Below, piece after piece: positions 25,701 through 48,230 of a stretch of DNA of 64,000 nucleotides. Numbering within the stretch: the stretch's first letter is position 1; each line of letters starts with the position of its first letter. A program made the position numbers and the translations under genes. Location of the stretch: assembly GCA_963969345.1 (NCBI GenBank), contig OZ017770.1, positions 9,185,246-9,249,245 on the forward strand. Direction: 5' to 3'. The stretch is from Turbatrix aceti. Its lineage: Eukaryota > Nematoda > Chromadorea > Rhabditida > Panagrolaimidae. The notes beneath the pieces are model-generated. The model had not been told where the DNA came from and searched no databases. It saw only the letters and a program-made list of their open reading frames with translations.

Positions 25701-25951
25701 GCAGTTCACTTATCTCTGATCGAGACACGCATTCAAGACCAGTAGCCAGTGACACGACACCATCCTAGGAGACAAAAATTTAATAGTCAGTAAAGTCGAG
25801 AAGCAAGAGACAGAAGTGCTAAATCGAGGTTCGAAAGGCCTGACTACAAATGAAGAAGTGAAAAACAAGGAGAGTTGAGCGTGCTCGCAAAAAAAGCCAC
25901 AACATTGCTCGCAGAACAAAATATATCGCAGCAGCGATCTGCAAAAAAAAG

Positions 25952-26473
25952 ATGACAACGACGGCCGACGATCCCCCGCCGGCAAGTCTGAAATTGCGTC
26001 GAAAAGCCTTCATTCGATTAGAATTGTTCGATATAGGTGCTACTAGCCGGGGCTTGAAAGACTTTGCCCGCGAGACACCTTTATTGACTACGGACTGGCT
26101 TTTGATGACTTCAAACGTGCAACAATGGTCACCAATAACAAAGTCGTTGCCGAAAACGCAGCAGACATCGTTGATTGCCAGATGCAACAACAGGAGGGGC
26201 AATTGTTTAATTGCACAATTTATGTGGTATGTGGATATACGTAGAAAACGTTACATTCATGGATGGATGTCAACAACCAAGTGATTTCCATCAACGGACA
26301 ATTTCTCAAAATTTTATTCGGGTGCGACAGTTTTTGGAAACTCTGTAAACCGCAAAAAAATCACGGACAATGTCAAGTTGAAAGCGACATTGTCATGTCA
26401 AGCTGCTCATCTTTTCGAGCTGCAGACAAAGGTGACTTCAATCGAAAATACTACCGAAATATTTAAATATTAA
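25952..26473 (+). pseudogene. possible decayed gene, copy 1
   Basis: An ATG follows an A-rich tract, and the frame reads KLRRKAFIRLELFDIGATSR. Protein-like sequence then continues in another frame (DTFIDYGLAFDDFKRATMV, VVAENAADIVDCQMQQQEG) and later in further frames (NVTFMDGCQQPSDFHQRT; DNVKLKATLSCQAAHLFELQ to a stop at 26473). No plausible introns connect them: the GT..AG candidates are under 20 nt. I read this as a broken gene of unknown family. It could instead be chance. Confidence 0.3.
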
Positions 26474-28303
26474 TGAGCGTCCCAAAAAATATCTAAGCTA
26501 GTAAAAACGAAAAAAGCAACGAAACGGAGAACAAACTGAGCGCTTTGATACGAAGGACTAGCACAAGTAAACGCTCAGAAAGCTTCTGCTTTGCATGAAC
26601 GTTGGAATCACCGCTTTTCTTGATTTTCGATATCACCAGAAAGATCAGAATACGCGAAACAAACAAAGCGCAGAGCAAAGGTGAACACATTGGATGGAAA
26701 AGAAAATGTTTGGAAGCAAGCAGAAATGGATCAAAGTTTCGTGGAGCTCGATTGCAGTTATCAACCATAAAAATTGCTTTGTAATCACATCGCAAGCCAT
26801 CGCGTGCATTCAAAGAATCCTCCTGACTCCGATTTATCAACGGAAAGCCAGCAATGCAAGTTCTACGCTGTCTGCTCAATGCAAAAAGCTGCGATCGACG
26901 TTCATAACGTTGACGCTCGCGTAATTCACTCAAGTGATGCCCTGAATCGTCGTCTACGAGTCGATTGAGCGCGTTTGTCTGTTTTTTTCTGTTGTGAGGA
27001 ATCGAAGAAAAAAAAGCAGGGACAGACGAACACGCATTCTTTCTGCAGTCGCTACTCAGATTCGACTTTGGTGGTCCTCTTCTTTATCATTTTTGGTCAT
27101 TCTTATCATTCGTATCATTGTGGCCATACTCAAAGAAAGCCGGCAATAATGCTGTGATCATGTTCCCACGGCCACGGCACTTTTTTACGTAAATGGCGTC
27201 TGTTTTACGTCTTTAATCTCGCGCGATAACGCTTTTCATTGTTTGAGTAAACGAGTTTGAACGTGTACGCGCATTGTTCCTTTCGCTTGGAATTTTTTTG
27301 AAGGAGACTTACGTCTTGGATTGTTTAAAGAAAAAAACAAAATTAATTTACAATTTACAAGAATAATAATTAAATCAAGAGATTGTAAAACAAATCATTT
27401 AACAATTTTTATGCTTGTTAAAAAGTGCATGATTGCGCGGATAGGTAAAAAATTTCTAGCTTTTCTTTTCCTCTGTGATCACTTTGACAGTAGTTTTGCG
27501 TTATCCTGTTGTTCTGCAAACAAACCCGTCTTTTTAATGGATGCGTCGACATAAATTTGCTCGCGGAGCAAATCTCGTTTACCTCGTCGATTGCTGACTG
27601 AAATGCCCGAACATTACGGTGAATGAATGGATGAAAGTCGATTTTTCAACTTCTTTAGAAGATTTGAACGGCTACCTCTCGCATAAACGGCAAAAATTTG
27701 TATCCAGGTTCTCTGTGTCCGGATCAGCATCAGCATTACGTAGATATGATGTTTGAAAAAAGGATTGATAAACATTGCCGGTGTTTTGTATAAAAAAAAC
27801 AATGATACACTATTTATGATATTAAAAAAAAAGACTAGGAAACAAAGAAACCATTTGCGTGCCTCCGAGGTAATCTGCGTGCGGTTCGTGCAAGCAGAGT
27901 TGCTGATTAGTTTGACGGAGTAAATGAGCCAGTTTAAGGTGAATTGTCATCTCAAGCATAGGCTACCAACAATCACTTTTGAGCAGGTTTGAACGGCAGA
28001 CACTCCCTTTCACTCCAGAAATTTTTTTCACCCCAGAAACATATGTATTTAGTGACTTATACGTGTGCGAGTTAGAAGTTTTGATCCTAAGACGAATCGT
28101 TTCTACGGATCCCGTTGACTTTACTTCTGAATAAGGTTACTTGATAAGAAAATTAAATTATGATCTTGTTGTAGGACATCTGCAGTGTTGTACGTCTTGT
28201 TGATAAAATCTTTTTTAACAACAATTTACAAAATAATAAACAATCAAACAGTCTTTTTTGTTTTTGAGTGTATACAATTTTGATACCAGTTTTTTTAGCT
28301 GCA
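26474..28303. other. intergenic upstream of Deltex, copy 1
   Basis: Holds the presumed Deltex promoter. A perfect short hairpin (atttgctc / gagcaaat, loop gcg) lies near 27555-27573. No gene was recognised. Recurs at 38461-40290. Confidence 0.5.
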
Positions 28304-29519
28304 ATGGCGCTTTCTACCGAAGTTGGAAGAGTCAACGTTCGAGGCTTGCAGTTGGTGTTTACCAAAGTTAGTTGCATTGTATGTTTTATTTATTTATTTA
28401 TTTATTTCACCATTACTCAGTGGTTAGTTATCATTAGACCAGATGTTAGGAGGTACAAATGATGTCCACGTAGGTGTAAATAGATATGTATAGATGGTCA
28501 CTAAAGTATTAACTTTACATTTTTTAAGATGGATTCCCGGCCATATTTTCAAAATGAACTCGTGATTCTTCCACCTGGAAGAAAAACGAAAAATTCGATG
28601 TCTTCTGAGTTTCAAGTCCTGTTGTCCACGATCTTGAGAGAATGCGAAGGCGAAATCAACGTCTCCTTTCTCGAAGCTTATTGCGGGCATCGAGAAATAC
28701 TTGCTTTCTCCTCGGCTTTAATTGAAGTAATCTCTGAGCAGCAGGACTTTGGCCAAATTCAAAAGGTGACGTTTATTGACAAGGCGGTTTTCCCTCTTAT
28801 TTGCATGCGAGATGCGTTGCGCAAGGCCTTCTACCCTGATCTGGCAACGGCAGTGCAGGAGAACGAGTCGGCATTCTCGACGTTCTATTACGACGTCAAC
28901 GAGGTACCGGTCGACTCGGTTTGCGCAATATGTCTGTGTTCACCTGTCGAAATGGAGATGCCAGGCGACGAGGCTGTCAGGCTCATCGAATGCCCTCATT
29001 TTTATCACCGAAAGTGTATCGACGCAGCACTGAGACACGATCTGAAGTGTCCGGTGTGCACGAAAAAGTATACTTTCAACTACGGACCCATGCCGGGTGG
29101 CACCACTATGCATGTCAAACGTCTGCCCGAAACCGTGCCACATCGTCCGACGGCAAGCGGCTACTACAAGGTCAAGTTTGTCGTCCCAAGTGGCTTTCAG
29201 AACGTAAATAGATTTTACTACATTTTAAAATGCCCGAATTTTAAACACTGATTTTTAGGAACTTGATCCAAATCCTGGCATGCCATACATGGGTGGAACT
29301 CGCTCGACTTACCTTCCCATCGACCAAGAAGGAGACACAGCTTTGACATGGCTGCGGTGGGCGTTCGACTACCACAAGCTCTTCGTCATCGAAAACAACA
29401 TCATCGCGTGGACGATTCCGACCATGCTCAAGGCTGACAAAGACTCGCCGAATGATTTCTTCCAAAGCTATTTTGCTGTTCTCCATTCCAGACTGCAGGA
29501 ATTGGAAGTTCTTGACTAA
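28304..29519 (+). CDS. Deltex-type RING E3 ubiquitin ligase, copy 1
   Basis: Exons 28304-28366, 28529-29203 and 29259-29519 join in phase to give 332 residues. A RING-H2 finger lies mid-protein: CAIC, then ECPHFYHRKC, then CPVC. It is followed by a Deltex C-terminal (DTC) domain with PGGTTMHVKRLPETVPHRP, GYYKVKFVVPSG, LDPNPGMPYMGGTRSTYLP and LLRRAF-type WLRWAFDYHKLFVI. Deltex proteins ubiquitinate targets, classically in Notch signalling, and the DTC domain binds ADP-ribose or NAD in characterised members. No WWE domains are present, so this is the short DTX3-like architecture. The first intron carries a retroposon tail. The first exon was chosen because it joins in phase with a good donor; starting at the second ATG (28529) is the alternative. 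Confidence 0.88.
28401..28480 (-). mobile_element. 3' tail of a non-LTR retroposon in Deltex intron 1
   Basis: About 80 bp matches 57510-57589 with a few substitutions (core CACCATTACTCAGTGGTTAG and GACCAGATGTTAGGAGG). Read on the minus strand both copies end in A-rich tails, here AAAT repeats, as expected of 5'-truncated LINE or SINE insertions. Confidence 0.55.
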
Positions 29520-30217
29520 ATTTCTTTTTTCTGATTTGTTGTTTGTCTTTTTGTTTTTCGTAGTTAATGTTTAGATAAATTTTTAAAGTACATATATTGG
29601 GCAAGTAGTTTATGATACATATGTACTACCAACGTTTTTATACTTTACACAATGTTATACAACCAACGTTTTTACATAGCTTTGGACCGCAATCTCAGTT
29701 TTTCTGTTCATCCGCTGGTTTTTGTGAAACGTGCAGCCAAGGATTTGGTTTTAGTCTACGAAATCGAATCCTGTGCCGCATTTTGAATTTAATAACCTAG
29801 AGGTTGAAAAAAGTGCATTTAAGAAAATCTTTAATCGATGCGTCAATTCATAGAAATGGATTTCTACGGTTTGGGTACTGATTTTCTTGGGTTTGATAAC
29901 TTTAGACATATTGCGAAATGCTTCGCTAATTTTGACAATGACAACGCCTGTTTTTGTTTAAAACAGATATAATATTTACGCAATTCAAGAACAATAAAAG
30001 CTCAGCAACAATAAAACTTCAATTTTAGTGATGACTGTCTGATGCTCCTACGTCATTTTAACAATTGTTATAATCATGACTCACGTACTGGTTGTAGAAA
30101 AATATCGTCAACAACCTACATACGAACTAGAACGTTCCTGTAATTTCCGTTTACTAGATGACATATATATTTCCTTTAGGAAACCCATCGTCACCTCACA
30201 ACTTTTACTATTTAGAA
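29520..30217. other. intergenic, Deltex to TTL, copy 1
   Basis: Deltex 3' flank and TTL upstream region. No additional gene was seen. CTTTAG near 30175 and ATTTAG just before the TTL start are possible trans-splice acceptors. Recurs at 41507-42204. Confidence 0.5.
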
Positions 30218-30686
30218 ATGCAAGTGCTTGTCCTCATCGCTGCCCTAACGACCGTCGCTTACGGTTTTATCGGTCGCGATCAAGCTTCCGGTGCCTACGG
30301 CACTCTCATGTGTAACAACGTACCAGCTGCTGGCGTCACCATCAAGCTTTACGACGACGACAGAGGCTTGGATCTTGATGATCTCATGGGCAGAACTACG
30401 ACTAACATCAATGGCTACTTTCAGGTTGCCGGCTACACCGACGAGATCACAACTATCGACCCAAAAATTAACGTAAGATCTCTATTTTTGTACTTGACAA
30501 CGCCGTAATTTTTTTTAGATCTACACCGACTGTAATGATGGCGTTAGGCCCTGTCAGCGCAAAATTTCGATCATGATTCCTGACCAATACATCACGCCCG
30601 GCAAAGTTGCCCGAGCATTTTTCAACTTGGGCACCATCCAGCTTGCGGGCAAGTTCCCCGGCGAAACCCGCGATTGCATTCACTAA
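30218..30686 (+). CDS. transthyretin-like (TTL/TTR) secreted protein, copy 1
   Basis: Exons 30218-30472 and 30519-30686 join in phase to give 140 residues. A signal peptide (MQVLVLIAALTTVAYG) precedes a transthyretin-like fold with family hallmarks: ASGAYGTLMCNNVPAAG, TIKLYDDDRGLDLDDLMG, TTNINGYFQVAG and DPKINIYTDCND, then RKISIMIPDQYI. Conserved cysteines fit the family. TTL proteins are secreted and nearly restricted to nematodes; some act as bridging or signalling molecules, most have no known role. A poly(A) signal (AATAAA) lies about 90 bp past the stop. Confidence 0.93.
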
Positions 30687-31303
30687 CTTGTAAATTTGGT
30701 TTGAACGCTTTCTGCTTTATTCTAAATGTCTGCAATTATAAGTCAATTCTTCAAGCTATGCATGTAATGAGGGATAATAAAATACATACTGTATAACAAG
30801 GTGTATGCAGAAACGATTAAAAGTAGCGTGTAGCAGTTGTCAAGTAGAAGAACGGCGTTGTCAAGTACAAGTAGCAGTGTGTTACCCAAAATATCTAACA
30901 AGTCCGTAAAACAGAAAAAGGGGCCGTAACCAATTCGGAACTACTGCAAAGTAGACAACAAGCAAAGCACGGCGTTGGATTTTTATGCGCGAACAAAGCA
31001 TAAAGCACAAACATATTATATAGAACATGGAAAACTTTCTTTGTCGGGTACAGACGTATCGGACGCGATTTAACACACGTTAGATAAGAGTCTCGACGTA
31101 AGAATTGTTTTGTGTCCGCAAAGCACTTACTTAGTGAATCATTCATTCACCGTTGTTTTACGATGTCTGAAAAAATTTAACTTTTTGTATAAGGTTTTCG
31201 TACATCGTCACAAGGTTTATTATGCCGTTGCTCGTCAATTTGGGGAATGATAATGCCTTATGAATACGTTATTATCACATTTATTGCATCAGTAAAGAAA
31301 ATA
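30687..31303. other. intergenic, TTL 3' end to protease-like 3' end, copy 1
   Basis: Convergent 3' flanks. A 29-bp block near 30982-31010 (ATGCGCGAACAAAGCATAAA core) recurs at 33056-33085, so it flanks the protease-like locus. No gene was seen. Confidence 0.45.
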
Positions 31304-32403
31304 TTATTCTTTAACTTCCGCAAAACCAATGCGTTGCTGTCCAAAGTCGTAGATAATGCAATACAATTGAAAGAATATATCTTGCAAAAGAAATTCATTT
31401 TTATTATCAAAAATGTTTAAAATATAGTCATTTGCTTCGTTGTAATCCGTAAATTGTTTTTTAGGAATAGTGAAGTTCTTTTTGTTTATGGTTAGCACAA
31501 TGTCGGGTACCAAATGAATATAAAACACTACTAAATCCCCCCACGCATTACCATTACAAAATTTAGTCATGATAGCGTTACGAAAATCCGTAGGTACAAA
31601 TATATTTTTCGAATGACTACCAGGCACTGCGACGGCTTTATATGAATTTTGAAAGCTTAAGTTTCCAGCATATGCATTGGATATCGTAAAATGAAAATTG
31701 CTCAGATTTGACACATTTGTGTAGTGCACGTCGCTGGAGCAATGTTCTGTATCAAATCCACCAAGCGTCATAACACCGGTACTTTCCGAGACGTTGCCAA
31801 AAACAGTACTGACATTCATTGCTGACAAGTAAGCTGTAATAATAGGTTCGCCAAAAACACCCTGATTAACGGCTTCAATAAATGGAGATGTTTTGTCGCC
31901 GACTGCAAGTCCAAGAACTCCGTCAAATTCGTTAAAGCCAAAACTGAATTCATAAGACATTGCTTGACCAAATGTAACATTTTCAACGACAATTCGGTCG
32001 CCGGTTGCTGTACCGAATGCAAATGTGTCAACGCCAAGAAAACCTTCCACGGTTTCCATAAAGTCGTAGGAATAAGAAACGGAAAAAGGTGAACCATTTT
32101 TTTGATAAGTCGATGACAGGCTTGAATTGAAAAATCTTGATGCCGTAGTGTTGGAAAAGTTGGAAACGTTTGGAATCCAAAAGTCGGATGAATTGATGTC
32201 TAAAAGAACTTTGAACTGCTGCGGAGGAGTGCCGACAGTAATGTCAGCCACATATCCAAAGCTTGTCCAGTTATACACTCCTTGGTAGAATGAATGTTTG
32301 TTCCGAACATTTTCAGATACGGAAAAGCCTTCGGTACCTTGATGATTGCGAAGAACGCAAAACCGACAAGATCAAATAGAAAGAGTGTTTTCATTGTAAT
32401 CAA
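31304..32403 (-). pseudogene. pepsin-like (A1) pseudoprotease, copy 1, frameshifted near start
   Basis: Intronless. The same protein as the intact gene at 43291-44385, but where that gene has TAGCA this copy has ATACGGAAAA (about 32318-32327, plus strand), a net gain of 5 bp. The frame starting at the normal ATG (MITMKTLFLFDL) therefore leaves the protease frame after about 25 codons. The remaining 320 codons stay open. Translation could only restart internally, without a signal peptide, or be rescued by splicing that I cannot see. As in the intact copy, the active-site motifs are DIN and VPG rather than DTG. Confidence 0.75.
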
Positions 32404-32611
32404 ATGCTAATTTAGTAGCGCAATGAAAAAGGCACTGTCCGGCTGTTAGCGTTTTCACCATTCAAATGCATCGAAGCTCTGAACGATATCATTACAAATA
32501 AATGACAGTAACAGTAAAACCTTAAACATTGAAAACAAATGGTACTCTCATTGTATGAAAATACGTTTATCACACCGTGATACGGGCTTTTATTGTTATC
32601 AAAGAATAACA

Positions 32612-32930
32612 ATGCTAAACTTTGCACCATATGTTTTGTTGAGCACCTTTGTTTGAATTTCTTTTTCCGTATTTGTAACCGGGGAAATCAAAAATGCATT
32701 TTTGACAAAAAAATGGTTTCCTTCGTCATCGATTGATTACATAAAATTTTTTTCTGATTGTCAGTACAATGTCGGGCAGAGAATAATTAACTGATTGTAT
32801 ATCGCTTAGACAGCGACCCAGCGTCAAGACTCCACCGCTTTTCAAATAGTGGCCATTAACTGCTGACGTTCATTGCAGACAAGCAAGACGACCATAAATG
32901 CATATCCAATTCCCCCGCCATGCTTTGGCA
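32612..32930 (-). pseudogene. relic of a second pepsin-like gene, copy 1
   Basis: On the minus strand the order LSAMNVSS, then GGVLTLGRCLSDI, then LPDIVLTIRKKFYVI, then NHFFVKNAFLISPV to a stop parallels LSAMNVST, TGVMTLGGFD, VPDIVLTINKKNFTI and the C-terminal part of the neighbouring pseudoprotease. At least one frameshift and several stops break it. The N-terminal half was not found. It recurs at 46337-46655. Confidence 0.55.
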
Positions 32931-34038
32931 ACACACAAAGGCTATTTTGATACTTGTGGTAGCATTTTTACCTGCTCTGGAGTGTTCTCTTCATTGTCCG
33001 GTGCCAAAAAGAAAAAAGTACCACTCTGCGCAAAGCCTTCAACAGGGACAGAAACTCTATGCGCGAGCAAAGCATAAAGCACAAATGCCGTCAAAAAGTT
33101 ATGTTTAGAAAACAATTTATGTATCATTCGATAAAATAAAACGGTAAAAAAAGAAGGAGGAAAAAATTTGACTTTACAATAAATTTTAATTTTACTGATA
33201 AAATTTTTTTCGTCAAAACACAAAAAAGTCAATTTTTTTGATTACAATAAAACATCCAGGAAGCTAAACAATATTTCATTCGTCAAGGACATCGGGCAGA
33301 GGCGTCAGATTTGATTTTTGAAGAAAGTCATGCAACATTTTTTTTTGAGTTTTTGATGAACAAGAAGAGGACAACATGAATCATATTTTTGACAATTTTT
33401 TGAAAACGATCAAACTATGTATTTGATGCTTCTGGACGATGCTTTTCCTCGGAAAGACTTCATTGTCATAATCGATAAGTTCTGAAGGACGAAACGCCAA
33501 TCGAACGCCAACGAAGAGCAAATTGACGATTTTTTCATGCGTGTTTCTGATGTTGGTTTCTACTTTTATGTATAGCTATATTTTACCGTGGAAATGTTGT
33601 ACATACAGCTATGTTTTCCCGTGAAAGCGGCCGAAGCCGAAGAACAAGATCCTCAGCTTAATATAGCTATATTTTCCCGTGGAAATTGGCTGAATCCAAT
33701 ATCCTCATCATGGTGGAGCGCAACCTACAAATAAAAGTATCATGGTGGAGCGCAACCTACAAATAAAAGTATCATGGAACGCAACCTACGAATAAGTTCA
33801 AAAGTAAGTGATTTTTGCGGTTTTATTTGCAGAACTGTTCCAATTTTTGTTTCCAGAATGAATACGATGATTGACCACAGCATTCGCGTACCAGTGCCCC
33901 GCGAAGTCTACCGCCGGACACGATTCAATGCCACAGCCACCACGGATGCTTCACTTCGGCCATATTAATGATTGGAAGCGGAAAGTTGTGCAAACTGCGC
34001 AATTTCATTGACATATTTTTTTATTTTCTTTGTTTATT
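32931..34038. other. intergenic with short tandem repeats, copy 1
   Basis: Contains two small repeat sets (listed) and short open stretches without splice support. No gene was recognised. Recurs at 46656-47763. Confidence 0.45.
33566..33800. repeat. two short tandem repeat sets
   Basis: The motif TATAGCTATATTTTCCCGTGGA occurs three times with variants (near 33572, 33603, 33662). A 32-bp unit starting TCATGGTGGAGCGCAACCTA occurs twice exactly and once with changes (33708, 33740, 33772). Confidence 0.7.
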
Positions 34039-34493
34039 TTACACAAAGTATATTATACATGTAAAAAAAATGAATACAATAAATACATATGACAAAATGT
34101 AGATCTGATGAAAAAAGGGGAGGGGTGGGAGGAAAAATTTGAAAAACCACTGCGGACCGGGCGCTTGAACGACAGTTTGTGTTTTGCCTAAAAACCTGGG
34201 ATAAAAAGTGACCAAAATGTTGAAATTTTTTTTCAAATTCACTAACCAATATTTGCCACTAGGCAAAAGAGCGAAAAAAAAATATAAAAAAAATACCCAC
34301 CTGAGTCGGCGTGCACCATCCATCTGCCGGGGTCGCCGTATACATCGACACGTAGGTTGAGTGGGCAGACTTTGGCGCCCTGCGCTTGCCAAAGCGGCAC
34401 TTCTTTGACAACAGTCTCTCTGTTAACAAAGATTGCGGTCTGGCGAGCCGTCGGCAATACATAAACAACGGACGCTGCTCATTATCGCGAAAC
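34039..34493 (-). pseudogene. 5'-truncated unrecognised gene, copy 1
   Basis: The exon-like stretch ending at 34301 (donor CAG|GTGGGT) reads TARQTAIFVNRETVVKEVPL, then VCPLNLRVDVYGDPGRWMVH. A possible following exon reads GKTQTVVQAPGPQWFFKF. The duplication junction at 34493/34494 cuts it off from its native upstream sequence, which exists only at the copy 2 end (48219 onward). Family unknown. Confidence 0.4.
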
Positions 34494-35281
34494 GACAAGG
34501 AAGACGTCGATGGCTAACCAAATGGACTCAAAAATGTCTTTGTCGAGGTGGCGCTTCGTCTTCGAGATTTCGACAACCGGGACATCCCATTTTGAAACAT
34601 TCGGGTGCAATTCCGTATCATCGTACTTCAGGTGAATTCCACAAACGTGTTTAAGGATTTCGGTTGGAGTGCCGTTCGAAGGCCATTTCTTAAACTGCTC
34701 TTCTTGGCCTGAGACGAAGACGGCAACCACTCGATCCCATTGTTCCGGGATCAGTTTCTCGGGACTGCCGATGATTTCGTAAAACATCGTCTCACCAGAC
34801 GCACTGCGATGAGAAATGAGAGGATCGAAATTCTTCATACCAGTAGTTGACTTGTTGTCTTCGGGAGAGATGTACTTTAGCGTCTCCAGGATGCCTCGGG
34901 CGTTATCGGTCGTAATGAGTGAAATCGAGTCGCAGGGAACGATGATGATAGGAGCGGGACGTCTTTCCAGAGGTTTTTTCGACGAATCGGTAATTCGGAG
35001 TTTGCGCTCTGAAGGTATGTATTGTAAAAAGTTAAAACAGACAAAAAAATTACTTTGAAAAGACATTCCGGGCCGGATGTCAAATTCTTCCTCGCCGTCA
35101 TTGACTATTTGTTGATCGAAACGATCGTACACACCGAGAGAGAAAAACGGCGACAACATGAGGGGCGTGGTGTCCACAGATTGCTTCCCGTCTTCTGGAG
35201 TCTGAAATTATCGAAATATACACATATACATTCATCTAAATGCAAAAAAAAACATACCGAGGAAGGCATCTCCTGATCCAT
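34482..35281 (-). CDS. cdc-73: CDC73/parafibromin C-domain protein, copy 2, altered C-terminus
   Basis: Same exon structure as copy 1 (start at 35281), same protein until the last few residues. The tandem-duplication junction at 34493/34494 replaces the native final codons (ANKPWLQ) with three different residues (VSR) and an immediate stop in the neighbouring sequence. The last helix of the Ras-like domain is therefore slightly shortened. It has lost its native 3' UTR and must use whatever poly(A) signal lies in the joined sequence. Confidence 0.78.
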
Positions 35282-35855
35282 CCTTGGTTAACACCAGCTC
35301 TTTCACAAGACAAAAAACAGCACCATACAAAATCGTTCACTCAACGAAAACTGTGTTTGGCAAAACGTTCCGACAAAAAATATTTCACTTAAAAAAAACT
35401 ATGCGACTCACTCAGTGAACGCGATGATCATGCCAACCAGGGATGGGTGGGTGAACGTTCGTGTTCGTGTTCATGTTTGTTCATTATTTCATTATTTCGA
35501 ACAAACAAAAATTATTCACAAAATTCGGGTAGATTTAGAAAGGGTACTGCAAAAACGCTTTTCCATGATATACAATGACATAACGTTACTCGGCAAAAAC
35601 TATGAAGTGTATGTATCAAGACTCTTACAGATTTCAGATTATACGAATTTACTTATTTTTACCCAAATAAATCAAATTTTTACCAGCAGTAAAAAAAGCC
35701 TGTTCAATGGTCGTTTGTGTTCGTCATCACAAAAAATATCTATCTTTGATTTGTCGAGATGTCAAAGGCTTTTGGAGTGCATGACCAATGCGAATAACTG
35801 TTTCGGCCCCGTCGGCCCCGTACAACTTCTAGGACACCTTTTCTTCGGCTTTCTT

Positions 35856-36603
35856 TTATCGGTCGTTTTTGAGGGCCTGGAGCGTCTCAAGGATTTTGGC
35901 TTGAATTTGCTGGAGATTGACAATCGCCTTTTTGATGTGATCGAGTTTGGTCAAAAGAGCGAAGTCTTCTGACAGGATATCACGATAGGCTTGTGTCCAG
36001 TTCTCCAGGTTCGGGAGCGGTACGGCTTTTTTGACGAGAGCTTCCGTTGCGGCGTTGGCTGCCGTGACTCACTGCCCGTGAGATGTTTCAGGTACAGCGG
36101 CAGTCGTTGCCGTAGGGTGGTATGCCAGCCCCCATGTCAAATTTTTTCATGCTCATTTGGAAGTAGCTGCTTTATGGTCGTATGCATAAATGGTTGCATG
36201 GGCATTTGATCCAATAGGACCATTTAGCTTCAGCAGAATCAGGAACTGCAGTGTATTTTGCGCGACGTTGATGACTTTTGTGTATCTCTTACTGTCGTAG
36301 CTGGAACTTTGTCCGTCTGATTCCGGCATCAGCCCTGCGTCGAATCGTGCCTGGGTGATCAGGCCAATTGTTTTGGTGATCCATTGGGAACCTGATTTGA
36401 AATGGTTTACTGCAGCAACGTCCCCCATCCGTCGTTCACATTCGGGAACGCCGATAGGGCTGCTTACTTCGGGATCAAAGCAAATGCTGCGAGAAGCAAT
36501 CGTTCTGAAACGGTTTGGATATTCAGTGTTCAAAATAGGCCTTGGCTAATTCGGCCTGTGCTTTTATGCTCTCTGCTTCCTTCCTCTCTGTTGAGCTGCT
36601 CAT
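35856..36603 (-). pseudogene. decayed gene of unknown family, copy 2
   Basis: Identical to 23869-24616, including every frameshift and stop, so decay preceded the duplication. Confidence 0.5.
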
Positions 36604-37938
36604 CGTTACACACAGTAAGCTAATGTAATGCCTAATCATAGTGCGTGGCGGAGCTTTTTGGCCTATGTATATATTTTTTTTGACAGTATGGCTACCTGAA
36701 CAAAATGATATAAAATCCTCCCTTCTCTCTTTTTCTGATTCCCAAAAAAATTGTCACCCCAAAAAATTATGCTTAAAAAATTGAAAGAGCCAAAAAAATT
36801 GAAAGAATGATGCTTACTGCCCCAAGAAAAGGTATAAGAATTTTGGAAAGCAAGACATAAGCAAAATTGAAAACCATGTCCCATTCGTAATTAGCATAAA
36901 TTTTGTAAAGTCTCGTCATAAAACAGAGTTTTTAAATTTTGCATATACCCGGTATACCATTTGGGGTAAGGTAGCTGAATTGGCTAAAGTTGAGCAATCT
37001 TTGCAGTTGATTGCATAGTTGTCGCCGTGTACGTCAGAACTTGTGGATACTGGTGTTGATTATATTCATGCGCTGTGAAACGGGAGCGTGTTGTGATCGC
37101 CACTCGGTTTTACATATAGTAATATATAGTGCTATATATTTACATATAGTAATATATTTACATATAGTAATAAATATAACAACATAATGGTATTTATATA
37201 TCCTGAAAAAAAAGTTATTACAGGGATAATCGAAGGAAAAGTTTTTAGACACGGAAAAAAAATCAACCAACCAGCCAGCAGAAAACGCAAAACGTTCGCG
37301 TTCGTTTCAGTTTGTTAGCGAACAAATCCAACTTTTTATGTATGTTTATGTTTGTTCAAGAACAGATTTACTTTGTTTGAATTCGTTTGCAAACAAATAT
37401 AAAATTTCCGAACAGGAACGAACAACATTTTAGGTAAAATTAGTTCAGTGGGGTCGAAATCAATGTTATTCGTCAAAAAATGGCAATTGTTTAGTGTACA
37501 TTGACTTCGGCCATGAAAAGTGTAAAAAGACCGTTATTGAAAAGTGAAAACGCATAGTATTGCAGTTTAGATTTTTCTGCCCAGGAAAAAAAAAATTAAT
37601 ACATAAATTATTAAAATAATTTGTTTGTTCGCGTTAATTTGAAAACACGGTCAAAAATGTTTGTGTTCGTTCAAGAACAAAAAAAAGGCAGTTCACTTAT
37701 CTCTGATCGAGACACGCATTCAAGACCAGTAGCCAGTGACACGACACCATCCTAGGAGACAAAAATTTAATAGTCAGTAAAGTCGAGAAGCAAGAGACAG
37801 AAGTGCTAAATCGAGGTTCGAAAGGCCTGACTACAAATGAAGAAGTGAAAAACAAGGAGAGTTGAGCGTGCTCGCAAAAAAAGCCACAACATTGCTCGCA
37901 GAACAAAATATATCGCAGCAGCGATCTGCAAAAAAAAG

Positions 37939-38460
37939 ATGACAACGACGGCCGACGATCCCCCGCCGGCAAGTCTGAAATTGCGTCGAAAAGCCTTCAT
38001 TCGATTAGAATTGTTCGATATAGGTGCTACTAGCCGGGGCTTGAAAGACTTTGCCCGCGAGACACCTTTATTGACTACGGACTGGCTTTTGATGACTTCA
38101 AACGTGCAACAATGGTCACCAATAACAAAGTCGTTGCCGAAAACGCAGCAGACATCGTTGATTGCCAGATGCAACAACAGGAGGGGCAATTGTTTAATTG
38201 CACAATTTATGTGGTATGTGGATATACGTAGAAAACGTTACATTCATGGATGGATGTCAACAACCAAGTGATTTCCATCAACGGACAATTTCTCAAAATT
38301 TTATTCGGGTGCGACAGTTTTTGGAAACTCTGTAAACCGCAAAAAAATCACGGACAATGTCAAGTTGAAAGCGACATTGTCATGTCAAGCTGCTCATCTT
38401 TTCGAGCTGCAGACAAAGGTGACTTCAATCGAAAATACTACCGAAATATTTAAATATTAA
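37939..38460 (+). pseudogene. possible decayed gene, copy 2
   Basis: Identical to 25952-26473 in all frames compared. Same uncertainty. Confidence 0.28.
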
Positions 38461-40290
38461 TGAGCGTCCCAAAAAATATCTAAGCTAGTAAAAACGAAAA
38501 AAGCAACGAAACGGAGAACAAACTGAGCGCTTTGATACGAAGGACTAGCACAAGTAAACGCTCAGAAAGCTTCTGCTTTGCATGAACGTTGGAATCACCG
38601 CTTTTCTTGATTTTCGATATCACCAGAAAGATCAGAATACGCGAAACAAACAAAGCGCAGAGCAAAGGTGAACACATTGGATGGAAAAGAAAATGTTTGG
38701 AAGCAAGCAGAAATGGATCAAAGTTTCGTGGAGCTCGATTGCAGTTATCAACCATAAAAATTGCTTTGTAATCACATCGCAAGCCATCGCGTGCATTCAA
38801 AGAATCCTCCTGACTCCGATTTATCAACGGAAAGCCAGCAATGCAAGTTCTACGCTGTCTGCTCAATGCAAAAAGCTGCGATCGACGTTCATAACGTTGA
38901 CGCTCGCGTAATTCACTCAAGTGATGCCCTGAATCGTCGTCTACGAGTCGATTGAGCGCGTTTGTCTGTTTTTTTCTGTTGTGAGGAATCGAAGAAAAAA
39001 AAGCAGGGACAGACGAACACGCATTCTTTCTGCAGTCGCTACTCAGATTCGACTTTGGTGGTCCTCTTCTTTATCATTTTTGGTCATTCTTATCATTCGT
39101 ATCATTGTGGCCATACTCAAAGAAAGCCGGCAATAATGCTGTGATCATGTTCCCACGGCCACGGCACTTTTTTACGTAAATGGCGTCTGTTTTACGTCTT
39201 TAATCTCGCGCGATAACGCTTTTCATTGTTTGAGTAAACGAGTTTGAACGTGTACGCGCATTGTTCCTTTCGCTTGGAATTTTTTTGAAGGAGACTTACG
39301 TCTTGGATTGTTTAAAGAAAAAAACAAAATTAATTTACAATTTACAAGAATAATAATTAAATCAAGAGATTGTAAAACAAATCATTTAACAATTTTTATG
39401 CTTGTTAAAAAGTGCATGATTGCGCGGATAGGTAAAAAATTTCTAGCTTTTCTTTTCCTCTGTGATCACTTTGACAGTAGTTTTGCGTTATCCTGTTGTT
39501 CTGCAAACAAACCCGTCTTTTTAATGGATGCGTCGACATAAATTTGCTCGCGGAGCAAATCTCGTTTACCTCGTCGATTGCTGACTGAAATGCCCGAACA
39601 TTACGGTGAATGAATGGATGAAAGTCGATTTTTCAACTTCTTTAGAAGATTTGAACGGCTACCTCTCGCATAAACGGCAAAAATTTGTATCCAGGTTCTC
39701 TGTGTCCGGATCAGCATCAGCATTACGTAGATATGATGTTTGAAAAAAGGATTGATAAACATTGCCGGTGTTTTGTATAAAAAAAACAATGATACACTAT
39801 TTATGATATTAAAAAAAAAGACTAGGAAACAAAGAAACCATTTGCGTGCCTCCGAGGTAATCTGCGTGCGGTTCGTGCAAGCAGAGTTGCTGATTAGTTT
39901 GACGGAGTAAATGAGCCAGTTTAAGGTGAATTGTCATCTCAAGCATAGGCTACCAACAATCACTTTTGAGCAGGTTTGAACGGCAGACACTCCCTTTCAC
40001 TCCAGAAATTTTTTTCACCCCAGAAACATATGTATTTAGTGACTTATACGTGTGCGAGTTAGAAGTTTTGATCCTAAGACGAATCGTTTCTACGGATCCC
40101 GTTGACTTTACTTCTGAATAAGGTTACTTGATAAGAAAATTAAATTATGATCTTGTTGTAGGACATCTGCAGTGTTGTACGTCTTGTTGATAAAATCTTT
40201 TTTAACAACAATTTACAAAATAATAAACAATCAAACAGTCTTTTTTGTTTTTGAGTGTATACAATTTTGATACCAGTTTTTTTAGCTGCA

Positions 40291-41506
40291 ATGGCGCTTT
40301 CTACCGAAGTTGGAAGAGTCAACGTTCGAGGCTTGCAGTTGGTGTTTACCAAAGTTAGTTGCATTGTATGTTTTATTTATTTATTTATTTATTTCACCAT
40401 TACTCAGTGGTTAGTTATCATTAGACCAGATGTTAGGAGGTACAAATGATGTCCACGTAGGTGTAAATAGATATGTATAGATGGTCACTAAAGTATTAAC
40501 TTTACATTTTTTAAGATGGATTCCCGGCCATATTTTCAAAATGAACTCGTGATTCTTCCACCTGGAAGAAAAACGAAAAATTCGATGTCTTCTGAGTTTC
40601 AAGTCCTGTTGTCCACGATCTTGAGAGAATGCGAAGGCGAAATCAACGTCTCCTTTCTCGAAGCTTATTGCGGGCATCGAGAAATACTTGCTTTCTCCTC
40701 GGCTTTAATTGAAGTAATCTCTGAGCAGCAGGACTTTGGCCAAATTCAAAAGGTGACGTTTATTGACAAGGCGGTTTTCCCTCTTATTTGCATGCGAGAT
40801 GCGTTGCGCAAGGCCTTCTACCCTGATCTGGCAACGGCAGTGCAGGAGAACGAGTCGGCATTCTCGACGTTCTATTACGACGTCAACGAGGTACCGGTCG
40901 ACTCGGTTTGCGCAATATGTCTGTGTTCACCTGTCGAAATGGAGATGCCAGGCGACGAGGCTGTCAGGCTCATCGAATGCCCTCATTTTTATCACCGAAA
41001 GTGTATCGACGCAGCACTGAGACACGATCTGAAGTGTCCGGTGTGCACGAAAAAGTATACTTTCAACTACGGACCCATGCCGGGTGGCACCACTATGCAT
41101 GTCAAACGTCTGCCCGAAACCGTGCCACATCGTCCGACGGCAAGCGGCTACTACAAGGTCAAGTTTGTCGTCCCAAGTGGCTTTCAGAACGTAAATAGAT
41201 TTTACTACATTTTAAAATGCCCGAATTTTAAACACTGATTTTTAGGAACTTGATCCAAATCCTGGCATGCCATACATGGGTGGAACTCGCTCGACTTACC
41301 TTCCCATCGACCAAGAAGGAGACACAGCTTTGACATGGCTGCGGTGGGCGTTCGACTACCACAAGCTCTTCGTCATCGAAAACAACATCATCGCGTGGAC
41401 GATTCCGACCATGCTCAAGGCTGACAAAGACTCGCCGAATGATTTCTTCCAAAGCTATTTTGCTGTTCTCCATTCCAGACTGCAGGAATTGGAAGTTCTT
41501 GACTAA
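40291..41506 (+). CDS. Deltex-type RING E3 ubiquitin ligase, copy 2
   Basis: Exons 40291-40353, 40516-41190 and 41246-41506. Identical translation to copy 1, RING-H2 and DTC domains intact, about 12 kb of upstream sequence also shared. Both copies should be expressed alike unless distant elements matter. The retroposon tail in intron 1 (40388-40467) is present too. Confidence 0.87.
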
Positions 41507-42204
41507 ATTTCTTTTTTCTGATTTGTTGTTTGTCTTTTTGTTTTTCGTAGTTAATGTTTAGATAAATTTTTAAAGTACATATATTGGGCAAGTAGTTTAT
41601 GATACATATGTACTACCAACGTTTTTATACTTTACACAATGTTATACAACCAACGTTTTTACATAGCTTTGGACCGCAATCTCAGTTTTTCTGTTCATCC
41701 GCTGGTTTTTGTGAAACGTGCAGCCAAGGATTTGGTTTTAGTCTACGAAATCGAATCCTGTGCCGCATTTTGAATTTAATAACCTAGAGGTTGAAAAAAG
41801 TGCATTTAAGAAAATCTTTAATCGATGCGTCAATTCATAGAAATGGATTTCTACGGTTTGGGTACTGATTTTCTTGGGTTTGATAACTTTAGACATATTG
41901 CGAAATGCTTCGCTAATTTTGACAATGACAACGCCTGTTTTTGTTTAAAACAGATATAATATTTACGCAATTCAAGAACAATAAAAGCTCAGCAACAATA
42001 AAACTTCAATTTTAGTGATGACTGTCTGATGCTCCTACGTCATTTTAACAATTGTTATAATCATGACTCACGTACTGGTTGTAGAAAAATATCGTCAACA
42101 ACCTACATACGAACTAGAACGTTCCTGTAATTTCCGTTTACTAGATGACATATATATTTCCTTTAGGAAACCCATCGTCACCTCACAACTTTTACTATTT
42201 AGAA

Positions 42205-42673
42205 ATGCAAGTGCTTGTCCTCATCGCTGCCCTAACGACCGTCGCTTACGGTTTTATCGGTCGCGATCAAGCTTCCGGTGCCTACGGCACTCTCATGTGT
42301 AACAACGTACCAGCTGCTGGCGTCACCATCAAGCTTTACGACGACGACAGAGGCTTGGATCTTGATGATCTCATGGGCAGAACTACGACTAACATCAATG
42401 GCTACTTTCAGGTTGCCGGCTACACCGACGAGATCACAACTATCGACCCAAAAATTAACGTAAGATCTCTATTTTTGTACTTGACAACGCCGTAATTTTT
42501 TTTAGATCTACACCGACTGTAATGATGGCGTTAGGCCCTGTCAGCGCAAAATTTCGATCATGATTCCTGACCAATACATCACGCCCGGCAAAGTTGCCCG
42601 AGCATTTTTCAACTTGGGCACCATCCAGCTTGCGGGCAAGTTCCCCGGCGAAACCCGCGATTGCATTCACTAA
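42205..42673 (+). CDS. transthyretin-like (TTL/TTR) secreted protein, copy 2
   Basis: Exons 42205-42459 and 42506-42673. Identical translation to copy 1, with signal peptide and complete TTL domain. Confidence 0.92.
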
Positions 42674-43290
42674 CTTGTAAATTTGGTTTGAACGCTTTCT
42701 GCTTTATTCTAAATGTCTGCAATTATAAGTCAATTCTTCAAGCTATGCATGTAATGAGGGATAATAAAATACATACTGTATAACAAGGTGTATGCAGAAA
42801 CGATTAAAAGTAGCGTGTAGCAGTTGTCAAGTAGAAGAACGGCGTTGTCAAGTACAAGTAGCAGTGTGTTACCCAAAATATCTAACAAGTCCGTAAAACA
42901 GAAAAAGGGGCCGTAACCAATTCGGAACTACTGCAAAGTAGACAACAAGCAAAGCACGGCGTTGGATTTTTATGCGCGAACAAAGCATAAAGCACAAACA
43001 TATTATATAGAACATGGAAAACTTTCTTTGTCGGGTACAGACGTATCGGACGCGATTTAACACACGTTAGATAAGAGTCTCGACGTAAGAATTGTTTTGT
43101 GTCCGCAAAGCACTTACTTAGTGAATCATTCATTCACCGTTGTTTTACGATGTCTGAAAAAATTTAACTTTTTGTATAAGGTTTTCGTACATCGTCACAA
43201 GGTTTATTATGCCGTTGCTCGTCAATTTGGGGAATGATAATGCCTTATGAATACGTTATTATCACATTTATTGCATCAGTAAAGAAAATA

Positions 43291-44385
43291 TTATTCTTTA
43301 ACTTCCGCAAAACCAATGCGTTGCTGTCCAAAGTCGTAGATAATGCAATACAATTGAAAGAATATATCTTGCAAAAGAAATTCATTTTTATTATCAAAAA
43401 TGTTTAAAATATAGTCATTTGCTTCGTTGTAATCCGTAAATTGTTTTTTAGGAATAGTGAAGTTCTTTTTGTTTATGGTTAGCACAATGTCGGGTACCAA
43501 ATGAATATAAAACACTACTAAATCCCCCCACGCATTACCATTACAAAATTTAGTCATGATAGCGTTACGAAAATCCGTAGGTACAAATATATTTTTCGAA
43601 TGACTACCAGGCACTGCGACGGCTTTATATGAATTTTGAAAGCTTAAGTTTCCAGCATATGCATTGGATATCGTAAAATGAAAATTGCTCAGATTTGACA
43701 CATTTGTGTAGTGCACGTCGCTGGAGCAATGTTCTGTATCAAATCCACCAAGCGTCATAACACCGGTACTTTCCGAGACGTTGCCAAAAACAGTACTGAC
43801 ATTCATTGCTGACAAGTAAGCTGTAATAATAGGTTCGCCAAAAACACCCTGATTAACGGCTTCAATAAATGGAGATGTTTTGTCGCCGACTGCAAGTCCA
43901 AGAACTCCGTCAAATTCGTTAAAGCCAAAACTGAATTCATAAGACATTGCTTGACCAAATGTAACATTTTCAACGACAATTCGGTCGCCGGTTGCTGTAC
44001 CGAATGCAAATGTGTCAACGCCAAGAAAACCTTCCACGGTTTCCATAAAGTCGTAGGAATAAGAAACGGAAAAAGGTGAACCATTTTTTTGATAAGTCGA
44101 TGACAGGCTTGAATTGAAAAATCTTGATGCCGTAGTGTTGGAAAAGTTGGAAACGTTTGGAATCCAAAAGTCGGATGAATTGATGTCTAAAAGAACTTTG
44201 AACTGCTGCGGAGGAGTGCCGACAGTAATGTCAGCCACATATCCAAAGCTTGTCCAGTTATACACTCCTTGGTAGAATGAATGTTTGTTCCGAACATTTT
44301 CAGTAGCAGCCTTCGGTACCTTGATGATTGCGAAGAACGCAAAACCGACAAGATCAAATAGAAAGAGTGTTTTCATTGTAATCAA
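43291..44385 (-). CDS. pepsin-like (A1) predicted pseudoprotease, intact gene
   Basis: A single-exon frame of 364 residues. A hydrophobic N-terminus (KTLFLFDLVGFAFFAIIK) serves as signal peptide. The fold matches pepsin/cathepsin D: FGYVADITVGTPPQQFKVLL before the first active site, SSDFWIPN after it, a flap-like SVSYSYDFMETVEGFLG, FDGVLGLAVGD, TGVMTLGGFD, and DFGQQRIGFAEV at the end. Both catalytic motifs are changed: the first DTG is DIN (residues 67-69, first Asp kept, Gly lost), the second is VPG (258-260, Asp replaced by Val). Hydrolysis by the usual mechanism is therefore not expected. There are 13 N-glycosylation sequons and only three cysteines. A secreted, heavily glycosylated binding protein is the likely role, comparable in logic to mammalian pregnancy-associated glycoproteins. 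Substrate or partner unknown. Confidence 0.85.
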   Translation of the reverse strand: MITMKTLFLFDLVGFAFFAIIKVPKAATENVRNKHSFYQGVYNWTSFGYVADITVGTPPQQFKVLLDINSSDFWIPNVSNFSNTTASRFFNSSLSSTYQKNGSPFSVSYSYDFMETVEGFLGVDTFAFGTATGDRIVVENVTFGQAMSYEFSFGFNEFDGVLGLAVGDKTSPFIEAVNQGVFGEPIITAYLSAMNVSTVFGNVSESTGVMTLGGFDTEHCSSDVHYTNVSNLSNFHFTISNAYAGNLSFQNSYKAVAVPGSHSKNIFVPTDFRNAIMTKFCNGNAWGDLVVFYIHLVPDIVLTINKKNFTIPKKQFTDYNEANDYILNIFDNKNEFLLQDIFFQLYCIIYDFGQQRIGFAEVKE

Positions 44386-44437
44386 ATGCTAATTTAGTAG
44401 CGCAATGAAAAAGGCACTGTCCGGCTGTTAGCGTTTT

Positions 44438-45167
44438 GGTTAGCACAATGTCGGGTACCAAATGAATATAAAACACTACTAAATCCCCCCACGCATTACC
44501 ATTACAAAATTTAGTCATGATAGCGTTACGAAAATCCGTAGGTACAAATATATTTTTCGAATGACTACCAGGCACTGCGACGGCTTTATATGAATTTTGA
44601 AAGCTTAAGTTTCCAGCATATGCATTGGATATCGTAAAATGAAAATTGCTCAGATTTGACACATTTGTTTAGTGCACGTCGCTGGAGCAATGTTCTGTAT
44701 CAAATCCACCAAGCGTCATAACACCGGTACTTTCCGAGACGTTGCCAAAAACAGTACTGACATTCATTGCTGACAAGTAAGCTGTAATAATAGGTTCGCC
44801 AAAAACACCCTGATTAACGGCTTCAATAAATGGAGATGTTTTGTCGCCGACTGCAAGTCCAAGAACTCCGTCAAATTCGTTAAAGCCAAAACTGAATTCA
44901 TAAGACATTGCTTGACCAAATGTAACATTTTCAACGACAATTCGGTCGCCGGTTGCTGTACCGAATGCAAATGTGTCAACGCCAAGAAAACCTTCCACGG
45001 TTTCCATAAAGTCGTAGGAATAAGAAACGGAAAAAGGTGAACCATTTTTTTGATAAGTCGATGACAGGCTTGAATTGTAGAAAGAGTGCAGCCTTCGGTA
45101 CCTTGATGATTGCGAAGAACGCAAAACCGACAAGATCAAATAGAAAGAGTGTTTTCATTGTAATCAA
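44438..45167 (-). pseudogene. broken pepsin-like unit (middle copy)
   Basis: Begins at a normal ATG (45167) and signal peptide, but a deletion joins the leader (KVPKAA) out of frame to the SSLSSTYQK region, removing the first active-site motif. A single base change at 44669 (GTGTAG to GTTTAG on the plus strand) makes a stop after SSDVH. The 3' end also lacks the native C-terminus. Confidence 0.85.
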
Positions 45168-46128
45168 ATGCTAATTTAGTAGCGCAATGAAAAAGGCACT
45201 GTCCGGCTGTTAGCGTTTTGGTTAGCACAATGTCGGGTACCAAATGAATATAAAACACTACTAAATCCCCCCACGCATTACCATTACAAAATTTAGTCAT
45301 GATAGCGTTACGAAAATCCGTAGGTACAAATATATTTTTCGAATGACTACCAGGCACTGCGACGGCTTTATATGAATTTTGAAAGCTTAAGTTTCCAGCA
45401 TATGCATTGGATATCGTAAAATGAAAATTGCTCAGATTTGACACATTTGTGTAGTGCACGTCGCTGGAGCAATGTTCTGTATCAAATCCACCAAGCGTCA
45501 TAACACCGGTACTTTCCGAGACGTTGCCAAAAACAGTACTGACATTCATTGCTGACAAGTAAGCTGTAATAATAGGTTCGCCAAAAACACCCTGATTAAC
45601 GGCTTCAATAAATGGAGATGTTTTGTCGCCGACTGCAAGTCCAAGAACTCCGTCAAATTCGTTAAAGCCAAAACTGAATTCATAAGACATTGCTTGACCA
45701 AATGTAACATTTTCAACGACAATTCGGTCGCCGGTTGCTGTACCGAATGCAAATGTGTCAACGCCAAGAAAACCTTCCACGGTTTCCATAAAGTCGTAGG
45801 AATAAGAAACGGAAAAAGGTGAACCATTTTTTTGATAAGTCGATGACAGGCTTGAATTGAAAAATCTTGATGCCGTAGTGTTGGAAAAGTTGGAAACGTT
45901 TGGAATCCAAAAGTCGGATGAATTGATGTCTAAAAGAACTTTGAACTGCTGCGGAGGAGTGCCGACAGTAATGTCAGCCACATATCCAAAGCTTGTCCAG
46001 TTATACACTCCTTGGTAGAATGAATGTTTGTTCCGAACATTTTCAGTAGCAGCCTTCGGTACCTTGATGATTGCGAAGAACGCAAAACCGACAAGATCAA
46101 ATAGAAAGAGTGTTTTCATTGTAATCAA
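45136..46128 (-). CDS. pepsin-like pseudoprotease with a new C-terminus (third unit)
   Basis: 330 codons. Identical to the intact gene through VPDIVLT (about residue 303), then runs across the tandem junction into the former 5' flank, adding about 27 new residues (KTLTAGQCLFHCATKLAFDY and onward) before a stop at 45136. The last 61 native residues, including the final beta strands of the fold, are missing. It keeps the native promoter side and signal peptide, so it could be transcribed. Stability of the product is doubtful. Confidence 0.7.
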   Translation of the reverse strand: MITMKTLFLFDLVGFAFFAIIKVPKAATENVRNKHSFYQGVYNWTSFGYVADITVGTPPQQFKVLLDINSSDFWIPNVSNFSNTTASRFFNSSLSSTYQKNGSPFSVSYSYDFMETVEGFLGVDTFAFGTATGDRIVVENVTFGQAMSYEFSFGFNEFDGVLGLAVGDKTSPFIEAVNQGVFGEPIITAYLSAMNVSTVFGNVSESTGVMTLGGFDTEHCSSDVHYTNVSNLSNFHFTISNAYAGNLSFQNSYKAVAVPGSHSKNIFVPTDFRNAIMTKFCNGNAWGDLVVFYIHLVPDIVLTKTLTAGQCLFHCATKLAFDYNENTLSI

Positions 46129-46336
46129 ATGCTAATTTAGTAGCGCAATGAAAAAGGCACTGTCCGGCTGTTAGCGTTTTCACCATTCAAATGCATCGAA
46201 GCTCTGAACGATATCATTACAAATAAATGACAGTAACAGTAAAACCTTAAACATTGAAAACAAATGGTACTCTCATTGTATGAAAATACGTTTATCACAC
46301 CGTGATACGGGCTTTTATTGTTATCAAAGAATAACA

Positions 46337-46655
46337 ATGCTAAACTTTGCACCATATGTTTTGTTGAGCACCTTTGTTTGAATTTCTTTTTCCGTATTTG
46401 TAACCGGGGAAATCAAAAATGCATTTTTGACAAAAAAATGGTTTCCTTCGTCATCGATTGATTACATAAAATTTTTTTCTGATTGTCAGTACAATGTCGG
46501 GCAGAGAATAATTAACTGATTGTATATCGCTTAGACAGCGACCCAGCGTCAAGACTCCACCGCTTTTCAAATAGTGGCCATTAACTGCTGACGTTCATTG
46601 CAGACAAGCAAGACGACCATAAATGCATATCCAATTCCCCCGCCATGCTTTGGCA
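46337..46655 (-). pseudogene. relic of a second pepsin-like gene, copy 2
   Basis: Identical to the relic at 32612-32930. Confidence 0.53.
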
Positions 46656-47763
46656 ACACACAAAGGCTATTTTGATACTTGTGGTAGCATTTTTACCTGC
46701 TCTGGAGTGTTCTCTTCATTGTCCGGTGCCAAAAAGAAAAAAGTACCACTCTGCGCAAAGCCTTCAACAGGGACAGAAACTCTATGCGCGAGCAAAGCAT
46801 AAAGCACAAATGCCGTCAAAAAGTTATGTTTAGAAAACAATTTATGTATCATTCGATAAAATAAAACGGTAAAAAAAGAAGGAGGAAAAAATTTGACTTT
46901 ACAATAAATTTTAATTTTACTGATAAAATTTTTTTCGTCAAAACACAAAAAAGTCAATTTTTTTGATTACAATAAAACATCCAGGAAGCTAAACAATATT
47001 TCATTCGTCAAGGACATCGGGCAGAGGCGTCAGATTTGATTTTTGAAGAAAGTCATGCAACATTTTTTTTTGAGTTTTTGATGAACAAGAAGAGGACAAC
47101 ATGAATCATATTTTTGACAATTTTTTGAAAACGATCAAACTATGTATTTGATGCTTCTGGACGATGCTTTTCCTCGGAAAGACTTCATTGTCATAATCGA
47201 TAAGTTCTGAAGGACGAAACGCCAATCGAACGCCAACGAAGAGCAAATTGACGATTTTTTCATGCGTGTTTCTGATGTTGGTTTCTACTTTTATGTATAG
47301 CTATATTTTACCGTGGAAATGTTGTACATACAGCTATGTTTTCCCGTGAAAGCGGCCGAAGCCGAAGAACAAGATCCTCAGCTTAATATAGCTATATTTT
47401 CCCGTGGAAATTGGCTGAATCCAATATCCTCATCATGGTGGAGCGCAACCTACAAATAAAAGTATCATGGTGGAGCGCAACCTACAAATAAAAGTATCAT
47501 GGAACGCAACCTACGAATAAGTTCAAAAGTAAGTGATTTTTGCGGTTTTATTTGCAGAACTGTTCCAATTTTTGTTTCCAGAATGAATACGATGATTGAC
47601 CACAGCATTCGCGTACCAGTGCCCCGCGAAGTCTACCGCCGGACACGATTCAATGCCACAGCCACCACGGATGCTTCACTTCGGCCATATTAATGATTGG
47701 AAGCGGAAAGTTGTGCAAACTGCGCAATTTCATTGACATATTTTTTTATTTTCTTTGTTTATT

Positions 47764-48230
47764 TTACACAAAGTATATTATACATGTAAAAAAAATGAAT
47801 ACAATAAATACATATGACAAAATGTAGATCTGATGAAAAAAGGGGAGGGGTGGGAGGAAAAATTTGAAAAACCACTGCGGACCGGGCGCTTGAACGACAG
47901 TTTGTGTTTTGCCTAAAAACCTGGGATAAAAAGTGACCAAAATGTTGAAATTTTTTTTCAAATTCACTAACCAATATTTGCCACTAGGCAAAAGAGCGAA
48001 AAAAAAATATAAAAAAAATACCCACCTGAGTCGGCGTGCACCATCCATCTGCCGGGGTCGCCGTATACATCGACACGTAGGTTGAGTGGGCAGACTTTGG
48101 CGCCCTGCGCTTGCCAAAGCGGCACTTCTTTGACAACAGTCTCTCTGTTAACAAAGATTGCGGTCTGGCGAGCCGTCGGCAATACATAAACAACGGACGC
48201 TGCTCATTATCGCGAAACCCCGTCGGCAAT
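47764..48230 (-). other. exons of an unrecognised gene at the native right boundary
   Basis: Same exon-like sequence as 34039-34493 but joined to its native upstream flank. An in-frame stop lies just upstream of the first exon-like stretch, with a possible acceptor (GAGCAG) after it, so further 5' exons would lie to the right. None was identified. Confidence 0.35.

Follow-up and report, generated by a model that had tools for sequence, protein, structure and literature searches.

A pepsin-like clade with eroded active sites in the nematode Turbatrix aceti, probably kept for a non-catalytic role

Peptidase family A1 is said to comprise active members as well as inactive members that keep binding specificity, and the pregnancy-associated glycoproteins (PAGs) were reported to bind pepstatin A, with BuPAG 7 retaining both catalytic Asp residues (PMC6221303). 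The German cockroach allergen Bla g 2 has the bilobal pepsin-like fold and owes its inactivity to catalytic-site substitutions (PMC3137622); it was found in tergal gland secretions, its function being unknown (PMC9541408). HRG-7 of Caenorhabditis elegans, a secreted nematode A1 homologue, acts in signalling independently of its two Asp residues (PMC10377359). We have analysed a gene of this family, T1 (43291..44376, minus strand), in a window of 64,000 nucleotides of Turbatrix aceti DNA (assembly GCA_963969345.1, contig OZ017770.1, positions 9,185,246 to 9,249,245, forward strand). T1 is a single open frame for an A1 pepsin-like pseudoprotease and the sole whole copy among four in the window. 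Together with its closest paralogues it forms a clade of a known kind, that of disarmed A1 proteins such as Bla g 2 and the PAGs. Judged from its sequences, this clade, part of a birth-and-death cluster, has probably been retained as a set of non-catalytic and probably secreted binding proteins, and the T1 locus is its most decayed member; we hold this reading with reserve, and it fits the clade better than T1 itself.

T1 shares with Bla g 2 the pepsin-like fold and a substituted catalytic site, but Bla g 2 is an insect protein with five disulfides and a zinc site (PMC3137622), whereas T1 has three cysteines. The ruminant PAGs are mammalian, made in the trophectoderm, and a separate expansion, and HRG-7, unlike T1, has both active-site Asp residues. 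A C. elegans A1 protein (P0042), 25% identical to T1, also has no Asp at one catalytic position in the alignment, reading GTG at motif 1; it has lost the first Asp, whereas T1 has lost the second.

The minus-strand open frame of T1 spans 43291–44385, and translation from its natural start, the ATG at 44376, yields 361 amino acids. Its match to the Pfam Asp family (PF00026) scores 137 bits against a cut-off of 19.9 (residues 49–362 of P0001), and the structure model shows, with confidence, a bilobal pepsin-like fold; T1 belongs to family A1 by descent. Active A1 enzymes have D-T/S-G with a catalytic Asp in each lobe, and a hydrophobic–hydrophobic–Gly psi-loop in each lobe. In T1, motif 1 (residues 64–66; 44179..44187, minus strand) reads DIN where DTG is expected, as the earlier note had stated, and so retains the first Asp. 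Motif 2 lies in residues 255–259, VPGSH (43600..43614, minus strand), and reads either VPG or GSH depending on the alignment register, with Asp in neither. The psi-loop Gly is present in the N-terminal lobe (N-lobe) and is replaced by Gln336 (43369..43371, minus strand) in the C-terminal lobe (C-lobe), a replacement common to T1 and its paralogues PA, PB, and PC. In the flap, the Tyr is retained and accompanied by an insertion and by Asp where most relatives carry Gly, which qualifies the description of this region as kept in the earlier note. T1 has thus the retained fold with substituted catalytic residues that marks an inactive A1 homologue, and by its residues the protein is unable to use the normal two-Asp mechanism.

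The genome (59.9 Mb in 28 contigs) is that of a rhabditid-like nematode and contains the telomere repeat TTAGGC; among the 7998 candidates scored for its COX1, the best match was an ENA protein (96%), followed among named entries by one of Caenorhabditis briggsae (90%), Litoditis (89%), and Rhabditophanes (88%). Counting exons and fragments, a search of the genome yielded at least 41 Pfam Asp matches and at least 38 matches to the T1 protein, and single-frame relatives of T1 are located on its own chromosome, C6. A tree of 17 rows groups T1, PA, PB, and PC in one clade (support 100/100), hereafter the P clade. PA and PB are near copies of each other, so that the whole-frame relatives of T1 in this clade amount to two further lineages, not three. 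The identity of T1 is 52% to PA, 51% to PB, and 48% to PC, and 41–45% to the genes of the remaining groups, a, b, and c. Groups a and b are DTG/DTG, and the two c genes are DTG/ETG. Within the P clade, motif 1 is DIN in T1 and DTS in PA, PB, and PC, and motif 2 is GSH in T1 (in the register preferred below), NEY in PA and PB, and DSH in PC. The motif 1 Gly is therefore missing in all four members, as is the motif 2 Gly in the preferred register (His, Tyr, Tyr, and His in T1, PA, PB, and PC). Gln occupies the C-lobe psi-loop position in all four. Of 112 database homologues, 107 carry Gly there, and the other five show two Ala, one Ser, and two gaps; this set includes partial and loosely aligned rows, some of whose apparent Asp losses are artefacts. 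The flap Tyr, retained in T1, is lost in PA, PB, and PC. By parsimony, these shared Gly losses would mean that the active site was first damaged in the ancestor of the P clade. The c pair (L019; C6:8251577-8252527 and C6:8258540-8259487), with DTG/ETG, eight sequons each, and a rate ratio near 1 at its tips (see below), represents a second, separate case of active-site erosion within this family.

The register of motif 2 bears on how the second Asp was lost. With a hidden Markov model (HMM) of 28 DTG-type rows, VPG of T1 falls on DTG, for which a two-residue insertion is needed. In the ungapped register, GGT-AGT-CAT of T1 stands opposite GAT-AGT-CAT of PC, with eight of nine bases equal, and AAT-GAA-TAT of PA sits at an equal distance from the following Pro; the GAT codon (Asp) of PC is one transition away from GGT of T1 and from AAT of PA. 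Because GGT-AGT-CAT matches both the codons of PC and the spacing of PA, the change is read as Asp to Gly in T1 and as Asp to Asn in PA and PB. We prefer this register; the choice is a matter of interpretation, but T1 has no Asp here under either. The earlier note, which had the second Asp replaced by Val, was right that no Asp is there; Val appears only in the HMM register. T1 and the PA/PB lineage probably each lost the second Asp on their own, by one codon step. A single loss in the ancestor of the clade was considered and rejected, as PC still has Asp there.

The retention of both Asp residues in PC (DTS/DSH) raises an alternative, that some members are active with non-standard motifs and the clade consists of altered proteases instead of binding proteins. 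Plasmodium histo-aspartic protease, which has no Asp at one of the catalytic positions, offers a model for such enzymes. The C-lobe psi-loop Gly and the motif 1 Gly, however, are lost in all four members, and so is the motif 2 Gly in the preferred register, and PA, PB, and PC are without the flap Tyr; we regard this alternative as improbable.

A weightier alternative is that T1 is simply a decaying protease gene and the P clade a dead-end branch of a birth-and-death cluster, its frames being open because decay is recent. The ratio of nonsynonymous to synonymous substitution rates (dN/dS) was estimated with a custom GY94-type model (F3x4, one fixed tree, 14 rows, 329 codon columns); PB (nearly the same as PA), two of the three copies of a8005 type, the C6:8024490 row (internal stop), two split b-type genes, two outgroups, and the other three window copies (T0, B, and C) were dropped. 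A single dN/dS for all rows was 0.403. Over the P crown it was 0.505, as against 0.374 in the rest, and a value of 1 was rejected (twice the log-likelihood difference, 33.79; p=6.1e-9); the crown is close to the DTG/DTG groups (a clade, 0.486; b clade, 0.439). The P stem value (0.115, length 5.4) is saturated and was not relied on. Single branches gave 0.612 for PC (p=0.066 against 1), 0.514 for PA (p=0.045), and 0.541 for the ancestor of PC and PA (p=0.28), and the T1 and PA tips jointly gave 0.535 (p=0.0035). In favor of decay, the T1 branch alone stands at 0.57 (p=0.078 against 1), and the tips of the two ETG c genes at 1.01; with the stem included, however, the c genes fall to 0.663 (p=0.019 against 1). 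In sets of 2000 neutral simulations of T1, a stop-free frame survived in 82 at 0.25 substitutions per codon, in 3 at 0.5, and in none at 1.0 or 1.3, by which long neutral drift of T1 is excluded. The earlier note had proposed selection for a non-catalytic role, and had taken neutral evolution together with DTG at both sites in all homologues as the mark of a decaying protease. The homologues are not all DTG/DTG, and selection is supported for the P clade, for which neutrality is rejected, and not for the T1 branch by itself.

The surroundings of T1 speak further to decay. Self-comparison of the window reveals two tandem units (no strand assigned), the first of ~12 kb (22506..34493) and the second (34493..48218) longer through two extra broken copies. 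They differ by one mismatch and five gap bases over 9950 aligned bases of the first part (99.94% identity) and by one mismatch and six gap bases over a further 3010 aligned bases; they stem from a duplication of very recent date or else from an artefact of assembly. The first unit carries T0 (31304..32394, minus strand), in which a small complex indel shifts the frame just after the signal peptide. The second carries T1, copy B (44433..45158, minus strand; internal deletion, premature TAA, 3' end missing), and copy C (45215..46119, minus strand), in which the 5' flank of copy B takes the place of the 3' end. The earlier note saw selection in the conservation of the frame across copies, which did not hold up: the copies are near identical in coding and non-coding DNA alike and are therefore uninformative on selection, and three of the four are broken. 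In addition, a TATA-like box is found at -46 to -37 from the ATG in every one of the 14 family members inspected (PA, PB, PC, four a, five b, and two c), and at that position in none of the four T copies, nor in the two outgroup genes. This is a comparison of motifs, not a test of expression; the missing box is the strongest sign that the expression of T1 may differ from that of its relatives. The upstream sequence that T1 has in common with T0 and C is limited to 61 bases (44377–44437), with the tail of copy B farther out. Relics of family genes at C6:8348784, at C6:9934266, and at about 46450..46640 of the window (minus strand) likewise point to decay. PA, PB, and PC, at 48–52% identity to T1, nevertheless have whole frames and the TATA-like box, and with the crown dN/dS and the simulations this makes decay of the whole clade the less likely explanation.

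T1 contains 13 N-glycosylation sequons (N-x-S/T-(not P)) against a mean of 4.71 in shuffled sequences, and 0 of 5000 shuffles reached 13. This count and that of the three cysteines agree with the earlier note, whose reading of T1 as a pepsin-fold non-enzyme was right on the missing normal catalytic pair and on the unusual richness in sequons. Strict counts are 9 in PC, 6 each in PA and PB, and 8 in each c gene, and 4–5 in each of nine DTG/DTG paralogues counted on C6. The excess over shuffles is clear in T1 and PC (p=0.003 for PC) and modest in the c genes (p=0.02). These counts are suggestive of a rise in sequons alongside erosion of the active site, resting on two lineages. A bolder version would be that the cluster shed catalysis at least twice, in the c pair (DTG to ETG) and in the P clade, while gaining sequons, and that the P proteins are half-dismantled, sugar-coated binding proteins with the C-lobe catalytic half broken and the N-lobe half surviving, which might, for example, carry peptides or serve as protease-inhibitor decoys in the gut lumen or body cavity. 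The N-lobe of the P crown is indeed the more constrained (dN/dS 0.360, as against 0.556 for the C-lobe; 139 and 160 of the 329 columns). The same holds in the rest of the family (0.312 and 0.414), and therefore the difference is not special to the P clade; being family-wide, it slightly lowered our estimate of this version, which we consider rather unlikely.

Altogether, we lean towards retention of the P clade for a non-catalytic role. Its ancestor probably already lacked the C-lobe psi-loop Gly, the motif 1 Gly, and, in the preferred register, the motif 2 Gly; the second Asp would have been lost later and separately in T1 and PA/PB. Purifying selection, seen for the clade as a whole, would have held the frames for a role that is most likely that of secreted, N-glycosylated proteins binding peptides or protein partners via the surviving cleft or surface. 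Secretion and glycosylation are suggested by the signal-like N-terminus and the sequons, and binding in the cleft by analogy with A1 proteins that are inactive or act without catalysis (Bla g 2, PAGs, HRG-7). T1 itself, in a recently duplicated and mostly broken array without the TATA-like box, would probably be weakly expressed or not at all.

Several observations weigh against this interpretation. The HMM register leaves T1 with the motif 2 Gly; the tree program flagged long end branches (T1, 0.79; PC, 0.56); and with both Asp residues in PC, some members might stay active. The P crown is slightly relaxed relative to the rest (p=0.026), the T1 branch is not significantly below 1, and the period after the Asp loss is inseparable from the period before it; a recent release of T1 from constraint stays compatible with both dN/dS and simulations. 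Upstream of T0 and C, and not of T1 and B, lies a different sequence with two TGATAA sites at -207 and -178, so that another promoter is possible. In PA/PB the sequon excess falls short of significance (p=0.083), and an excess over shuffles is also seen in two b genes, which are DTG/DTG (p=0.03 and p=0.04). Finally, the signal peptide of T1, inspected by eye, has an Asp within the hydrophobic stretch and no A-x-A site, which makes its secretion and cleavage uncertain.

Database searches returned distant relatives only. With the T1 protein, identities were 24–37% (54 rows from 1555 candidates), and with a seven-row alignment, scored against the 7999 candidates that had the most words in common with it, 22–36% among the 58 matches listed, except for two rows of 56% over 7% of T1. 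No T1 orthologue outside this genome was among the matches listed; those of the profile search included three PAG-named rows, and Bla g 2 was not among the 54 or 60 database matches listed. The titles of the 50 structure matches listed revealed no inactive A1 structure, which is not evidence against one, and no paper on such a nematode clade was found by title or abstract start in a search whose coverage mostly left out the subscription literature.

Some further features of the region deserve mention. An AATAAA (43267..43272, minus strand), read from the sequence 3' of the T1 stop codon, is a possible poly(A) signal. The relic upstream of copy C was assigned by eye to another A1 gene and reads like GGVLTLG ... 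PDIVLTI; of the two short relics elsewhere on C6 (L028 at 8348784 and L029 at 9934266), L029 resembles, by eye, the C-terminus of the P clade, with LQD for LGD. Each ~12-kb unit also holds a RING-finger protein and a transthyretin-like gene, the latter adjoining T1 on the opposite strand; a 587-residue protein of Diploscapter pachys (P0060) is listed with transthyretin-like and A1 domains, as a fusion or a gene-model error. Another recent tandem amplification comprises three near-identical DTG/DTG genes ~4.38 kb apart (C6:8001596, 8005979, and 8010363; L016 and L017). From 61814 to 64000, a tandem repeat with a period of ~456 bases and 96–99% identity between copies reaches the end of the window.

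As the T1 locus illustrates, an open frame shared by near-identical tandem copies is no evidence of selection. Both insects and mammals are known to have disarmed A1 proteins, whose roles are mostly unknown, and the more interesting part here is less the disarmed A1 proteins as such than the series of erosion steps standing side by side in one cluster. Intact, partly eroded, and fully eroded members in a single nematode cluster would allow the steps by which catalysis is lost to be ordered, and would allow one to ask what is kept.
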